Shown: piece by piece, positions 39,999-49,001 of the stretch
Layout: every line of letters starts with the position of its first letter
Position numbering within the stretch: position 1 is the first letter of the stretch
DNA from: Elephas maximus indicus
Taxonomy: Eukaryota > Chordata > Mammalia > Proboscidea > Elephantidae
NCBI RefSeq assembly: GCF_024166365.1
Contig: NC_064822.1
Span: forward strand, 142,172,823 to 142,236,822
DNA: 64,000 nucleotides
Direction: 5' to 3'
Translations under genes and position numbers: made by a program
Notes under the pieces: model-generated
Seen by the model: only the letters and a program-made list of their open reading frames with translations
The model's database searches: none
What the model was told of the DNA's origin: nothing

Positions 39999-40093
39999 CT
40001 GTTTTCTTTCTCTTCAATGTCAGATGTACTGGCTAGTCGTCTTGGTATTGTAGGTGCCACATATGCGAGCCTAGTTCCTTTACTGTCTTTCTC
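39999..40093 (-). CDS. PPP1R12A: PPP1R12A exon (486-517)
   Basis: Reads EKDSKGTRLAYVAPTIPRRL then ASTSDIEEKEN, ending two bases into Arg517. The acceptor is GTTGTGCAG and the donor is AACAG followed by GTGAAT. It begins in phase 0 and ends in phase 2. It is a regulatory low-complexity segment without a named fold. Confidence 0.96.
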
Positions 40094-41298: not shown

Positions 41299-41514
41299 CT
41301 TTTCTTTATTATCCAAAGAGGAGGAAAGTCTGGGACTTGAAGCTGAGCGCATAACACCTGCAGTGTCTTTTTCTTTCTGAGCCTCTTTAGATGCTGTGAT
41401 TTCAGCAAGTGCACCATAGCTGCCAGTCTTTCTAAGTCCTAACCTCCAAGATGCAGGAGATTCATCTTTCCTTTCTTCTTCTTTGGGAGAGATTTTAGCA
41501 GCTGAGGTTGGGAA
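41299..41514 (-). CDS. PPP1R12A: PPP1R12A exon with NUAK1/14-3-3 sites (414-485)
   Basis: Encodes 72 codons from FPTSAAKISPKEEER to SSSLDNKEK, in phase 0 at both ends. It carries the block PASWRLGLRKTGSYGAL, in which the Ser is human Ser445, and MRSASSPRL, with Ser472. Both are known in human MYPT1 as NUAK1 phosphorylation sites that recruit 14-3-3. The acceptor (AAAAACAG) follows an A-rich, pyrimidine-poor stretch and looks weak; the donor is AAG followed by GTAATC. A related exon-like segment lies about 400 bases upstream in the transcript, which makes this exon a candidate partner in alternative splicing. Confidence 0.96.
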
Positions 41515-41908
41515 CTGTTTTTATTTTATTTTATATTTAAGAAAGAAAAGAAATTATCAAGGCTGATCAGTCCTTAAGTTGGAAAATGAGAAGTTTACAG
41601 ATAATATGTCTAAAATTACAGTTAATAGTTTCAGGGGGAAAAAAAACACTTTTACTGAGTAGGTTAATATCTTAGTAAAAATTGTAAAGATTTACAACTG
41701 AAAAAGGAATATATTACCTCTCCAGAAGTTAGATTTAAGAAAACACACTCCACACTCTATATCACACAGAAAAATTATGATGCAAATACAGAAAACAGAA
41801 ATACGCACACCATCAGGACTTAAAACCATGCATCTCTGGAACCAATATTTATATTAAACTTGTTATGTTGTAACCTAATACAAATCCTTGCATATAAAAA
41901 TGCCTCAC

Positions 41909-42025
41909 CATAGATTTTTCACCCTTATTGGGCACAAGAACAATGCCAGTTTTGCGCAAGCCCTGCCTCCATGATGCAGGATCTACTGATTCCACCACAG
42001 GCATGATAGGAGCAATGAAATCATA
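41909..42025 (-). CDS. PPP1R12A: Candidate alternative PPP1R12A exon, diverged copy of the neighbouring exon
   Basis: An open 39-codon segment beginning YDFIAPIMPVVESVDPASWR and ending VPNKGEKSM. It has a strong acceptor (ATTTCAATTGGCTTTAG) and a plausible donor (ATG followed by GTGAGG). Length 117 nt and phase 0 at both ends mean it can be added, skipped or exchanged without shifting frame. Its core PASWRQGLRKTG matches the canonical exon's PASWRLGLRKTG. In those twelve codons five differ synonymously and only one changes the residue, as expected for an old duplicate kept under protein selection. The Ser445 position is Ile here. I do not recall this exon in standard MYPT1 isoforms. Its use in mRNA is inferred, not seen. 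Confidence 0.72.
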
Positions 42026-42962
42026 CTAAAGCCAATTGAAATAAGACAGGTAAAGAGATAATGATTGAAAGCATGAAAATAGAAAAGGGAAGTTAAGAAA
42101 AAAAACCCACTTTTTCTTTTTAAAAGAATTTTATAATAAAAGTCCAATAGTTGGCTATTGATCCCATCTTCAAAAGTACTGGGAACAAGCCGCAGTTTTA
42201 ACATGAGATAATGTGAAAGAACCCAATAAGGAAATTTCTAAAGCAGTTAAAGGCACACAGAGTAGATACTGCATATGAGTGAACAAACTACTGTACATGA
42301 ATTTTGTTTTTATCCATTTATATAATTTGGCTAAACCATTTTAAATCCAACATAATGAATAAAATTTTTTTAACATTTTCTAATTATAACATTTAATAAT
42401 AATATCATAGCCTTAAGTTTACTCTTTGATTTCCCAACAAATATAAGTTTAAACATTCCAACTAAAAGCTATTTTTATATATATTTATTCCATAAGCTTT
42501 CCAATGGTCCTAAAACTGCAGTATCTGTTATCTTTAACTAGTTCACTTCAACACTTCCAGAGTTTAAATATTCAATCACAGTTAAATATAGATGGGTGAA
42601 TATAGCAACTAAGTAGCTGCTACAAGCATAGGGTTTGATATCTAAAAGACTCTTTCCTTCATATTTTCTACTTCAGCAAAATCACAGTGGTACTGTGGGA
42701 TATTTTAGCTTTGAGAGAAGCACAGTGACATCTGTTGGACACTGCACCAACTGCTAATAACTAATCTGTACCAAACTATTTAATAACGAAAATCTTAGGA
42801 GTTTCTTCTGGCCAAGTGGCCCTGTGAAAAAAAGTCAAGGAGACACCAGGGTCTCTATGGGGATTGAGAAATTTGGGAACCTATTTTACATATACACATA
42901 GTATTCTGTGTAATATGATAAGGTGTTGAGACTACTCAATTTAAAGCTATAGTATTCTAGAA

Positions 42963-43280
42963 CAGGGGTTGGAAAACTTTTACTGTGAAGGGCTAGACTC
43001 TAAGTATTTTAGGCTTTGCAGACCATAGAGTCTCGTTGCAACTACTCAACTATGCTGCTGCAGCACAAAAGCAGCCCTAGATAATACATAAATAAATGAG
43101 TGTGACTGTGCTCTAATAAAATTTTATTTAGGGGCATTAATGTCACAAAATAATAAATATTCTTTTGAATTTTTTCTAACATTTGAAAAAAATTAAAACC
43201 ATTCTTAGTTTTCAAACTGTAACAAAAAACAGGTAGTGGGCTGGGTTTAGCCAACAGCCAAGAGTTTGCCAATTTTTGCT
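42963..43280. mobile_element. hAT-type non-autonomous DNA transposon
   Basis: Starts 'caggggttggaaaactttta', contains 'ggctttgcagaccatagagt', 'gcaactactcaactatgctg' and 'ctctaataaaattttattta', and ends 'gccaatttttgct'. This is the common placental Charlie-like element that begins CAGGGGTTGGCAAACT. Near-identical tctagaa on both sides is the remnant of its 8-bp duplication. Exact subfamily not assigned. Confidence 0.85.
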
Positions 43281-43429
43281 CTAGAAACTTCTCAGCCTCA
43301 CCCTGCCTCCCCAAACTGGAAACAGATGTTTTCCTTCATAATAAAGTAGCCCAGATAATAGCAGATAACATTTACCAAATGTTATAAAAGGAGTTAACAT
43401 TTAAGAAGTGAGGTATTAAACTAAACATG

Positions 43430-43545
43430 TCACATGGATTATCTCATTTAATTCTTACAATGACACAAGAAATACTAGTATTACTGTTATTTTAATGTTG
43501 AGGAAAATGAGGCAGTAACATCAGTTTTGAAATGGACATTCGTTA
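43430..43545 (+). repeat. MIR-family fragment
   Basis: 'ggattatctcatttaattct', 'tattactgttattttaatgt' and 'gaggaaaatgaggcagtaac' match the MIR segment that precedes 'gaaactgaggc'. Confidence 0.7.
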
Positions 43546-43639
43546 CACACTCTAATGGTTGATTACCTTAACTCTGCCTTACATGCATTTAAATTTGAGG
43601 AGTTGTTTATATGTTTAAAAGCACCTTTCCATTTTACTT

Positions 43640-44775
43640 GGTATGAAAACAAACCTTACTGAAATACTTAACTACACCCTCTGCCTGAAACTTCTCTTTT
43701 GACTCATACCAGGATAATATCTTGAATTCCCTATTCTTCTGATCATCTCCTTTCTTGGCCTTTTTTCTTGTTGTTATCAAATTTCCTTGTCCAAGTCCTG
43801 GAACATAAGTGCTCCAAGAGTCTGTTCTCAGATCTCCCATCTTCTTTCCTCTCTTGGGAGTTGGGGGCAGGGTCCTCTCTACTTCATCAGGCTAAACATT
43901 AATTTTATTCAGCTTATTCTTAAATTTGTTATTCTCTAGCCTGGTCTGACTCCTAAATTCCCAGTCCTGAATTTGTTTCTACCTGTAGATTGCACTATCT
44001 AGAACAGTAATTGGGACCTGAAACTCAACATGTCTAAAATCAAACATCTTTACTTCCAAATCAACTTTTTTAACAGCACCAACCACCTTTCCAACCCTCT
44101 GTGTTTCAAACTTGACAATCAAGTTAGACTTCTTTTTTGTCATCTTCCTATATGCATAAATTAGGTGCCAAGTCTCTAAGTCTTTGCCTCTTCTTTATAA
44201 GCCTAATGCCACTTCTCTAGTTTATACTCTCATCACCCTTCTTCTGGGCAACTTCAATGACTTTCTAATAATCCTTCTGTCAATGTGCCTCTCACCTCAA
44301 ACATACCTGTACATTACTGCCAGTATAATATTCTATAAAGAATAATTCTCTCATGGCCTTGTTCAAACATCTTCTATGACTCGCTATGTATTCTTTGCCT
44401 ATTATAAAAGTGTTAACCTAGAAATGAAGACGTTCTACAATTGGTATCTATTTTTCCTGTTTTATTTTGTATATACATACCGTATAATTCACTGAAACCA
44501 GACAATTCATTTTCCTGCAAAATAATCTACTCATTCAAAATATTATCACTACTTTGCTTGCTTCTCTTCCTTCCTTTTCAACAAACTCTACAATCCGTCC
44601 TCTCTTCCAGTTGAAATACTACGTACAAATCCTTTCAAAGTCTACTTTAAATGTTCTGATCCTAGTACCCCAGACCAAATATGATTTCTTCCACTTTTAA
44701 ATTATTGTGTTGCATTTGTACAGCTTTATTAACATACTTCATATACCCACAGCACACAGCAGTCTTTTGTTAAAA
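43640..44775 (+). repeat. Long L2 copy
   Basis: Successive blocks 'ctcaacatgtctaaaatcaa', 'tcaatgactttctaataatc', 'cctgtacattactgccagta' and 'tcatggccttgttcaaacat' keep the order of the L2 3' half. No open frame remains. Confidence 0.65.
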
Positions 44776-45675
44776 AATTATTATGGTTATTAAATCTGAT
44801 TCAATTAACCAGAACACGTAATTCCAAATGAGCTTTTATTTTATCATTCAGTAAAGAAAAACAGTTTATGGATATGCATATCCATACAGCAAAGTAGGTA
44901 ATCTGTTTTAGAGATCCCAACAATATTTATTTTGATCAGAGAGTTATGTAAACTTATTGTTAGTTAAAATTTAAAAGCAAAAAATCTACCTGATGATTTT
45001 ATAGATGATAGCTCCACAAATCACAGGGCCTGATCTTATTGCCACAAAAATAGTTCCGGCTGAAGAGTTAAGAACTTGAGAAGATCATTTAAAGTGAATA
45101 CAACTGTGTCTTTCTCTGTAATTACTATGATTTATTATCGTAAATAAGTGAAATTTATTACGTTTTATGAGCTTTCTTTTTTGGTGATATGTTCCTTGCC
45201 ACTAGTCTCTCTCTCTACCCACCTACCTATCTATCTAGTTTATACACAGTTGGAGGAAGCCAGAGGACTGAAGATAACGCTGTCTAAGTATCAGATGCAA
45301 AGTAGTAAATGGGAACCTAGAAATACCTAGAACTTTTAGCTGCAAAATACTTTAAAATGCATTTGGAAATTAACAGTAAGTTTAAGTGGATTTGTATCTG
45401 TTAGGCCTCTAAAGTTACAGGTAAAATTTTGAAATAAGCTTAAAAATATGTTAAAACGCTATATTAAAGTAGGTAAAGAGTATCAGTATCACTGACCATA
45501 ACAACAGATTCTAAAAGCCATAGAATACTGGTAAAAGGATTCCCCAACATATTAAAAATAATACTGCAAATATTTAGCACACCATGACTTCATTATTTTG
45601 GCTACAAAACCCAGCCAAATAACATTTGGCTAATTAAGAAAGAAACAAAAAACCCTTTAAAAAAAAAAAAAAAAG

Positions 45676-45810
45676 GCTTTCCCTTTCTCACTCTCCTAAT
45701 TACCCCACGAATTTATCAATCATTAGGAAGGCAATTAAAATCCTTTGGTTAAGTTCCTATTTGAGAAAGAATATTGAAGAAAACCTGGTTAGGTAAATTT
45801 ATGAAAGAAA
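45676..45810. repeat. Copy 1 of an unidentified repeat
   Basis: Shares 'ggcaattaaaatcctttggt', 'ctggttaggtaaattt' and flanking blocks with 50228-50390, at roughly 75 percent identity by eye. A poly(A) run precedes both. Family not recognised. Confidence 0.55.
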
Positions 45811-46014
45811 ATCCAGCAACTTTGATGCTACAATGATATAAAACATAATAATGTAATCTTCAAAGTAAGTTATGACACTTGAAATTGAGAAAATGTAGTT
45901 TCTGAATATGCAAATTATAGAAGCAGACGGTTGTTGTTAGATCAATTTAATTACAGAATCAAAGGTAACTCAATATAAATTTTTATAGCAAAGACATTAT
46001 TGGCCCATTAAGTT

Positions 46015-46219
46015 AACCAAACCAAAACCAAACCTAGTGCCATCAAGTCAATTCTGACACATAGGAACCCTACAGGACAGAGCAGAGTTGCCCCATAGGG
46101 TTTCCAAGCTGCAATCTTTACAGAAGCAGACTGCTACATCTTTCTCCCACGGAATGGCTGGTGGGTGCAAGCCGCTGACCTTGTGGTTAGTACCCAAGTG
46201 CTTAACCACCATGCCACCA
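46015..46219 (-). mobile_element. AfroSINE, long form
   Basis: Minus-strand copy, 'taaccaaaccaaaaccaaac' to 'aaccaccatgccacc', with the internal 'ttacagaagcagactgctac' segment. Confidence 0.93.
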
Positions 46220-46544
46220 AAGTATTTGCTTTCAATTAGGGCAGCAGGCATAAATCAAAAAGTAAATTGCCATAATCTGAGCTACACTTGAGAAAAATAA
46301 AACTGACCACAAGTCTGCTGTAATTATTTGAATTTAGTAGAAAAGGGTTTGTATAGCCAAATACCAAAAACAGAGCAATTTTTTTTTTTTTTTTTGCCCA
46401 GATATTCCAGGGAAATGGAGCTTATGGGAACTTTAGATAATCCTATAGTTCTAATGATAATAAATCAAAAGAGCTGAAGATGCAGGCAGAAGTTCAGTGC
46501 TTTCTTAAGAGTTATATGATGGCTCTAGAATTAAATTATACTTG

Positions 46545-46689
46545 ACACAGTGGTTAAGAGCTACGGCTGCTAACTAAAAGGTCAGCAGTTCAAATCTACC
46601 AGCTGCTACTTGAAAGCCCTATTGGAGCAGTTCTATTCTGTCCTATATGCTATGAGTCGGAATTGACTCGAAGGCAATGGGTTTAGTTA
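46545..46689 (+). mobile_element. AfroSINE
   Basis: Plus-strand copy, 'acacagtggttaagagctac' to 'gaaggcaatgggtttagtta', with the first head bases missing or altered. Confidence 0.92.
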
Positions 46690-46759
46690 AGGTAGCTCAT
46701 GGTGACCCTAACTGTGACATTAACAGTCTTCAAAATTCTGCAGATGACCTGCTTTCAAA

Positions 46760-46944
46760 GAAATTAATTTTACAGAGAAGACAGATTAATGGAAACAGAA
46801 CAAACTGAATGGAAATAATGAGAGTGCTGACACATTGTGAAAAATGTAACCAATGTCACGGAATAATTTTTATAAGCATTGTTAAATGGGAACCTAATAT
46901 GCTGTGTAAACTTTCAACTAAAATACAATAAAATATATATATTT
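46760..46944 (+). mobile_element. Afrotherian L1 3' end fragment
   Basis: 'gtgctgacacattgtgaaaa', 'tgggaacctaatatgctgtg' and 'taaactttcaactaaaatac' match, on the opposite strand, the 3' end seen at 63541-64000. It ends in an AATAAAATA-type tail. Confidence 0.7.
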
Positions 46945-47269
46945 TAAATTTCATTTTAAAGCATATTTAATTATGATCATATGAACATGGGCTCTAATTC
47001 AAGAAGACCCACCAGTTCCTGGAACAAAGAAATAACTCATTACATAGTTTCCTGATACATAAACTGTATAATACTGAAACTCATACATCACCACTAGGAA
47101 TTAACATTACTGCTTTCCGAGGGAAAAATTTTAGAGGAAGATTATGCCTAGTAGTATGGACTTAAAAAAATTCTCTAGTTTACCATGTTAAAAAGATCTA
47201 CATTTTGATCACTTGAAGCCAAATCTAGACTAACAATACTGACATGATAGAAACACCATTGGTTTTTAA

Positions 47270-47640
47270 AATCAGTCCTCAAACTCATGCAAATCAAGTA
47301 ATGTCACAGAAGCAACAAAATAAGTCCAAAGGCAAAGACATGACAACTAATGCAATGTACAATCCTTGACTGGACCCTTCCTTGATTTGAAAAAACAAAC
47401 AAAAAGCTAAAAAAGACATTACTAGGAAAATTGGGAAAATCTGAGTATGGTCTGTATATCAGTTAGCATAAATAATATTATATCAAAATTGAATTTCCCA
47501 AGTATGATAATTTTATTGTGGGAATAAAGGATAATGCTTTTTTATTCAGGAGATACATGCTCAAGTATTTAAGGATGAAATGCCATGATGCCTGCAATCC
47601 ATTCCCAAATGATTCAATAAAGAAAAGTGTGTGTGTACAA
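47270..47640 (+). repeat. Ancient L1 3' end
   Basis: 'ggtctgtatatcagttagca', 'gagatacatgctcaagtatt' and 'atgccatgatgcctgcaatc' follow the order of an old L1 3' UTR. Confidence 0.55.
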
Positions 47641-47707
47641 AGAGAGGGAAACGAGTGTGCCCATTAAAGATAATTAAGGGCTGGGGAGGAGAGATCTCTA
47701 TTTAGAG

Positions 47708-48032
47708 AACAAAACCAAACCCGTTGTCTTCGAGTCGATTCTAACTCATGGCAGCCTTAAAAGACAGAGTAGAGCAGCCCCATAGGAAATCCAAGGAACG
47801 GCTGGTGGATTAGAACTGTAACCTTCTGGTTAACAACCGAACTCTTAACCACTGTGACACCAAAAAAACAACCAGTGCCGTCAAGTCGATTCTGACCCAT
47901 AGCGACCAAGAACGGCTGGTGGATTAGAACTGTAACCTTCTGGTTAACAACCGAACTCTTAACCACTGTGACACCAAAAAAACAACCAGTGCCGTCAAGT
48001 CGATTCTGACCCATAGCGACCACCAGGGCTCC
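47708..48032 (-). mobile_element. AfroSINE dimer with a tandem duplication
   Basis: Minus-strand SINE sequence runs from 'aacaaaaccaaacccgttgt' to 'accagggctcc'. Within it, 112 bases at 47797-47908 recur without a difference at 47911-48022 (period 114). The repeated unit spans the head of one SINE and the tail of the next, so a head-to-tail SINE pair existed before the duplication. Confidence 0.93.
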
Positions 48033-48439
48033 TTAAAAAAGGCACAGGTCAGTAAAAAAAAAAAAAAAAATCTAAATCTTTAATCTGGGTTAAAAGATGG
48101 ACAGGTTCTGGAGAAGGAGGGAAACTGAAGTCTTTAAAAAGGTCAACACACTAGTTTGAAAGCACTGCTTTGGTAGAAACAAGGAGGTTACAGGCATGAA
48201 CAAGAGAAAGAGAGAAGAAAAAATGAAACTAACATTTTGGGAGCACTTAGTTACTAGACAGGCTCTCTGTCTTGACCAACGCTTACAATGTTAACTTTCT
48301 CTCTTTGTTTTTGCAAACAAAGACAGTACTAAGTACCTTATTCAGTGTCCACACTAGCAACTGCTGAGGCTAGAAGATGCTCTCTGGTGTGTCTGGCATC
48401 AAAGATTATGCTCTTGCTGTCATACCATAGTTGTATGCT

Positions 48440-48545
48440 TAGAGCTTTGTACTACGAATTAGAAAATCTAGATTTTAGTTCCTTCACTGACTTGTAGTAG
48501 TTAATTTTTGTGCTTAACTTACCTATTTGTGAAACTATCAACATG
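48440..48545 (+). repeat. MIR fragment
   Basis: 'gaattagaaaatctagattt' followed by 'gacttgtagtagttaatttt' and 'acctatttgtgaaac' resembles the MIR order, diverged. Confidence 0.5.
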
Positions 48546-48876
48546 TCCTCTACTGAACAGAGATAAAGGACATAGAATGAGTTTTTTCCAAAAAAGAAGT
48601 AAAAACTACCATGATCATTAGTTCTAAAATTATGAAAATTTTAATTTTTCTGCTATTTACTTTCGTAACTAAGGTAATATTCTAATATATAAAAAAAAGG
48701 AAAGAAAAAAGAATAAAATGTGGTTCAGAGGAAATATCAGTCAAATTACAGACAAAAATATATTCTTACTCTAAAACCTTAAATACTTTTGGAATAAACT
48801 ACAAAAATTTAGAACTACTTTAATGCCTTAGTACAAATGGTACTTGAACACAATAGCAAATATAATTTTGGCTTAC

Positions 48877-49001
48877 CTTTTTAATAGGTGATGTAGGTGT
48901 TGCCTGACCAGACGTCACAGTAGGTGTTGTGACAGCTACAGTAGCTGCTTGTGTACTAGAAGTATTGATATTAGTTACAGAAGTCAATGGTTTTGTCTTA
49001 T
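48877..49001 (-). CDS. PPP1R12A: PPP1R12A exon: Ser/Thr-rich segment (372-413)
   Basis: Reads KTKPLTSVTNINTSS, a long Thr/Ser/Ala/Val run, then TPTSPIKK. The acceptor is TTTTTTAATAG and the donor is AAG followed by GTAAGC. It ends in phase 0. The intron on its 5' side is about 12.6 kb and holds the large L1. Downstream of it come, in order, the candidate alternative exon at 41909-42025 and the canonical exon at 41299-41514; both would join in phase. Confidence 0.96.

Follow-up and report, generated by a model that had tools for sequence, protein, structure and literature searches.

Intron 9 of PPP1R12A (MYPT1) contains a short open segment, part of which closely resembles exon 10. The questions raised by this locus are whether the segment is an exon, how it came to resemble its neighbor, and whether it is already known. 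A first-pass annotation of the DNA, based on its letters, had proposed an undescribed exon, arising by an old tandem duplication. The analyses described here cover the 64-kb window, i.e. the whole stretch of DNA under study (64,000 nucleotides), together with searches of the animal's own genome (3.40 Gb, 64 contigs) and of the literature.

Results

Location, reading frame, and splice sites

PPP1R12A is the gene of the window, where it lies on the minus strand; residues 265 to 1030 were mapped by tblastn, using as query the human protein sequence (Table 1). With the 56-residue exon (552-607) taken as E13 and the 59-residue exon (608-666) taken as E14, as in PMC9367544, counting back puts exons 9 and 10 on either side of the segment, which therefore lies in intron 9. 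The intron sequence between the segment and the start of exon 10 at 41514 amounts to 394 nt, in agreement with the ~400 bases given previously for its distance from the 414-485 exon. The segment (42025-41909, minus strand) translates, with zero stops, as YDFIAPIMPVVESVDPASWRQGLRKTGIVLVPNKGEKSM and is bounded by ...ggctttag/TATGAT at its start and TCTATG/gtgaggca... at its end; its description as an open stretch of 117 nt, in phase 0 at both ends, thus holds. A poison exon was considered and dropped, since the segment is in frame and stop-free.

Table 1. Coordinates of the candidate exon, its core, and neighboring features in the window
Feature	Position	Strand	Details	Basis
PPP1R12A exon 9, upstream splice partner	48877..49001	-	residues 372-413	tblastn, site scores
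Intron 9, with the candidate exon inside	41515..48876	-	7,362 nt	numbered by counting back from E13 and E14
AG-free pyrimidine-rich stretch 5' of the segment acceptor	42028..42109	-	82 nt, 77% pyrimidine	
Candidate alternative exon (E9+-like)	41909..42025	-	117 nt, phase 0 at both ends, 39 residues	open frame, splice dinucleotides, site scores
Core PASWRQGLRKTG, homologous to exon 10 core	41945..41980	-		tblastn (41980-41945), codon comparison, repeat pair D1 (74% over 38 nt)
PPP1R12A exon 10	41299..41514	-	residues 414-485, 216 nt, very weak A-rich acceptor	tblastn, site scores
Exon 10 core PASWRLGLRKTG, followed by Ser445 position	41422..41457	-		codon comparison, 12-residue scan
PPP1R12A exon 11	39999..40093	-	starts at residue 486	tblastn, site scores

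When scored with consensus matrices, the segment has a good donor (5.9) and a middling acceptor (-1.2), so that the earlier view of both as good holds for the donor and is generous for the acceptor; the acceptor of exon 10 scores far lower still (-19.0). A scan of the introns (57,196 nt), with cut-offs placed just below the scores of the segment itself, gave three open segments with a length divisible by three that passed at both sites, i.e. the segment, a shorter form using the same donor, and one in another intron. Because the two others score equally on both sites, the splice sites alone are insufficient for the case. By summed splice score at loose cut-offs the segment is fourth of 81 in intron 9; its splice sites are usable, but not remarkable. 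The AG-free stretch preceding the acceptor is long, with an AG-to-AG gap of 84 (fifth of 499 in intron 9), and a branch-point-like TTAAC is present at -68, with further matches at -49, -26, and -17. The RNA of the region does not fold more stably than shuffled sequence (z 0.82; 16 of 20 shuffles do equally well), so no docking structure is argued for.

Other features of the gene were observed in the course of this work. The intron that precedes exon 9 includes an open stretch of 93 nt (59589-59497, minus strand) with acceptor and donor scores of 5.4 and 7.9, respectively, above those of 42025-41909. The acceptor region of exon 10, a constitutive exon, is A-rich (41515-41560, minus strand; ttaaatataaaataaaataaaaacag), its score of -19.0 comparing with -5.6 for the next weakest acceptor scored in the gene with the consensus matrix. 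Intron 9 also contains, at 47791-48022, a SINE-like unit in the form of two tandem 114-nt copies, which are 99% identical, and the 15-nt core of which has nine matching places in the window (≤2 mismatches). We take this unit to resemble AfroSINE, which would fit an afrotherian genome.

Similarity of the segment to exon 10

The core of the segment, PASWRQGLRKTG, has 11 of 12 residues identical with PASWRLGLRKTG of exon 10, with five codons silently different. In nucleotide terms 10 of 36 positions differ (3, 1, and 6 by codon position), changing one residue, so that the coordinates and codon counts of the first-pass annotation (12 codons, five silent differences, and one residue changed) proved correct on recount. 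Beyond the core on the same diagonal, 51 of 81 nt differ and only 3 of 27 residues are identical; the similarity is limited to 12 of the 39 codons, and the two exons are of unequal length (117 versus 216 nt). What stands of the earlier proposal is therefore an old duplication within the gene, but not a clean copy of a whole exon.

Ungapped comparison of exon 10 with the six frames of intron 9 (BLOSUM62) gave a top score of 60, corresponding to the segment; the top score fell to 33 once the segment was removed. When intron 9 was shuffled 300 times with dinucleotides preserved, a score of 60 was never reached (mean 31.3, sd 3.3, maximum 53). The Gumbel estimate for a score of 60, 9e-6, is a rough one, as a single shuffle reaching 53 indicates a heavier tail. 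When 12-residue stretches of the window and four 10-kb PPP1R12B loci were scored, the three copies of the motif gave 67, 66, and 66, and the next place 31. The similarity of the segment to exon 10, with 0/300 shuffles reaching its score, is not due to chance, and a chance pseudo-exon was dropped as an explanation. The similarity is to a neighboring exon that shares both strand and frame with the segment, as expected for an old intragenic duplication of the exon 10 motif.

Selection on the core

The proportions of silent and replacement differences between the two cores (pS 0.76 and pN 0.11) were considered alongside neutral simulations, with 20,000 runs per setting. With one copy drifting to 10 differences, one residue change or fewer was obtained in 5e-5 of runs; with exon 10 accepting silent changes only and the relic drifting, the fraction was 3e-4 to 5e-4. 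The argument that a noncoding relic is unlikely to keep this protein sequence is thus borne out, simulated relics managing it in about 0.005-0.05% of runs. The 12-codon core had been picked for its likeness, and for this reason a simulation was also run in which the whole 72-codon relic drifted and any 12-codon stretch was allowed; 2, 2, 2, 1, and 0 of 1,500 runs succeeded at divergences of 0.20, 0.28, 0.35, 0.42, and 0.50, respectively. The silent-biased divergence and the simulations support protein-level selection on the 12-codon core, as had been proposed, in a manner unlike that of a neutral relic. The other 27 codons of the segment have no detectable relation to exon 10 and no sign of selection; given that 51 of 81 nt and all but three of 27 residues differ outside the core, nothing shows selection on them.

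Age of the duplication and copies elsewhere in the genome

The PPP1R12B counterpart of exon 10 is located at C23:11096192-11096380 in the same genome, the gene being named by its exon-by-exon likeness to PPP1R12A. The exon 10 cores of PPP1R12A and PPP1R12B differ by 8 nt and one residue, and those of PPP1R12A exon 10 and the segment by 10 nt and one residue. Because the segment core has diverged at least as much as the cores of the paralogues, which split early in vertebrate history, the duplication is old. Its age would be comparable, as an order of magnitude, with the paralogue split; with silent sites close to saturation and a core of just 12 codons, this gives an order and not a date. SWRxGLRKTG is common to exon 10 of PPP1R12A, exon 10 of PPP1R12B, and the segment. 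By contrast, the segment has Q where both exon 10 copies have L, and Ile after RKTG where both have Ser (the Ser445 position). A second copy of the motif is absent from PPP1R12B in the 39.7 kb around its exon 10 (60 nt of which read N), where the best other place scores 27; the copy thus either postdates the split or has disappeared from PPP1R12B.

The segment is present once in the 3.40-Gb genome; the sole other match, on contig C8 (E 6.57), contains a stop and was set aside as a probable chance hit. A search with the peptide of exons 10 and 11 gave PPP1R12A exon 10 and PPP1R12B exon 10 as the matches among the best candidates scored, and with only these two there is no retrocopy usable as transcript evidence. 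No match in the genome peptide searches was assignable to PPP1R12C (three weak matches, E 3.9 to 8.0, were left aside). The SWRxGLRKTG DNA pattern was found at at least eight places in the genome, i.e. the segment, PPP1R12B exon 10, and six much-alike G-rich places, a list that is incomplete in that PPP1R12A exon 10 fits the pattern yet was missed, perhaps through stretches of N. The six G-rich places share a nearly identical 26-nt match, and apparently represent one dispersed repeat family, not the motif. One degenerate pattern had no matches in viral and prokaryote contigs; Pfam has no model matching the peptide of either exon 10 or the segment, and there was no match to the segment in the PDB.

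Relation to human exon E9+

A human exon, E9+ (Ensembl PPP1R12A-223), has been described in intron 9, in frame (Saldanha et al. 2022, PMC9367544). Its inclusion is predicted to lengthen the human protein by 32 residues (PMC9367544); the resulting isoform exceeds full length, and so would hold both E9+ and exon 10. The same work reports RNA-seq support for E9+ in one of the study's data sets and annotation in rat, and that it 'seems to be' conserved in some vertebrates; E9+ is without EST/mRNA support, was undetected by RT-PCR in HUVEC and saphenous-vein smooth muscle cells, and was at <1% in platelets (PMC9367544).

Human E9+ and the segment are alike in lying in intron 9, in being in frame, and in keeping the downstream reading frame; from position and frame, it can be inferred with some confidence that the segment is the orthologue of E9+. 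They differ in that E9+ adds 32 residues and the segment would add 39. The last 32 residues of the segment would start at MPVVESVD, where there is no AG in this genome, and exon boundaries may differ between species. No acceptor in this genome gives a 96-nt exon at the donor of the segment, nor does any open 96-nt segment in intron 9 pass loose thresholds, which the acceptor of exon 10 itself would also fail.

With E9+ already in print for the same intron, the earlier description of the exon as undescribed is probably wrong. The strings 'duplicat,' 'homolog,' 'Ser445,' and '14-3-3' are absent from the main text of PMC9367544, and in the literature searched no title or opening of an abstract describes the exon as a copy of exon 10. 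That literature has no joint mention of PPP1R12A and 'unannotated exon' and does not contain the motif strings looked for; the PPP1R12A passages of further papers name no exon in intron 9.

Discussion

The segment is probably a genuine PPP1R12A cassette exon, used on occasion, added in frame, and likely orthologous to E9+. It would have originated by an old duplication of part of exon 10 itself, or of an ancestor of both exons. When included, the segment would be joined in frame between exons 9 and 10, so giving a MYPT1 with 39 extra residues and a second WRxGLRKTG element just ahead of the canonical one, in the order ...PASWRQGLRKTGI..., then ...PASWRLGLRKTGS... Addition, rather than exchange, is proposed because full length is exceeded in the human isoform.

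Other explanations for the segment merit consideration. It is unlikely that it is a dead relic of an exon duplication, which is not spliced and has kept its open frame and motif by luck: the likeness of just 12 of 39 codons, and the two other open intron segments that equal its scores on both splice sites, would be consistent with such an origin, but simulated relics with 10 nt differences seldom retain 11 of the 12 residues, and an unconstrained relic would be hardly alignable at this silent divergence. It also appears rather unlikely that the segment is functional in intron 9 without being the orthologue of E9+, with E9+ being another, lineage-specific exon and the segment unlisted. The difference between 39 and 32 residues and the failure to find an open 96-nt candidate in intron 9, at the thresholds used, point in that direction. 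By contrast, the shared intron and frame, and the reported conservation of E9+ in some vertebrates and its annotation in rat (PMC9367544), argue for orthology, as does the divergence of the core, which is at least like that of the 12A/12B paralogues, such that human should share the segment unless it has been lost.

A further proposal is that the segment and exon 10 are mutually exclusive, in which case an isoform without Ser445 and Ser472 would escape that part of NUAK/14-3-3 control. The two are homologous neighbors, both in phase 0, 394 nt apart, and the acceptor of exon 10 is by far the weakest scored (-19.0 versus -1.2 for the segment), making a switch conceivable, though not favored. However, the published human E9+ isoform is longer than full length (PMC9367544) and so would include both exons, the homology is confined to 12 codons of exons that are 117 and 216 nt in length, rather than being exon-long, and the branch-point-like matches found within 60 nt upstream of exon 10, at -43 and -53, are far from the upstream donor, giving no sign of a steric block. 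In addition, three papers on duplicated or mutually exclusive exons, two of them surveys in human, do not name PPP1R12A in their main text. Mutual exclusivity is thus considered unlikely.

As an added cassette exon, the segment may be of interest with respect to regulation by phosphorylation. Ser445, in the context RLGLRKTGS*YGALAEI, is phosphorylated by NUAK kinases (PMC4109838). In the extra copy, Ile replaces the Ser445 equivalent (RKTGS), and the copy would therefore not become a 14-3-3 site; it may be that the serine-less element competes for, or spaces out, whatever recognizes the element. We infer, rather than observe, the identity with E9+, the use of the exon in this animal, and any effect on NUAK/14-3-3 control. 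The proposal that the exon is an old vertebrate splice switch, adding a serine-less NUAK/14-3-3 element to MYPT1 such that control of the phosphatase differs in specific cells, is accordingly a speculative one. MYPT1 sets the strength of relaxation in cells and smooth muscle, and if this rarely studied exon does hold a copy of the Ser445 element that lacks the serine, this would provide a direct, testable reason for its existence and would explain the apparent conservation of E9+ despite its scant use in the cells examined so far.

Comparison can be made with tandem duplicated exon substitution and mutually exclusive exons. As in the cases treated in PMC9741552 and PMC5740500, the PPP1R12A locus has neighboring homologous exons, apparently of old origin, with conserved residues. 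By contrast with the exon pairs described there, however, the homology here extends over 12 codons, the exons are of unequal length, and the human isoform adds rather than substitutes.
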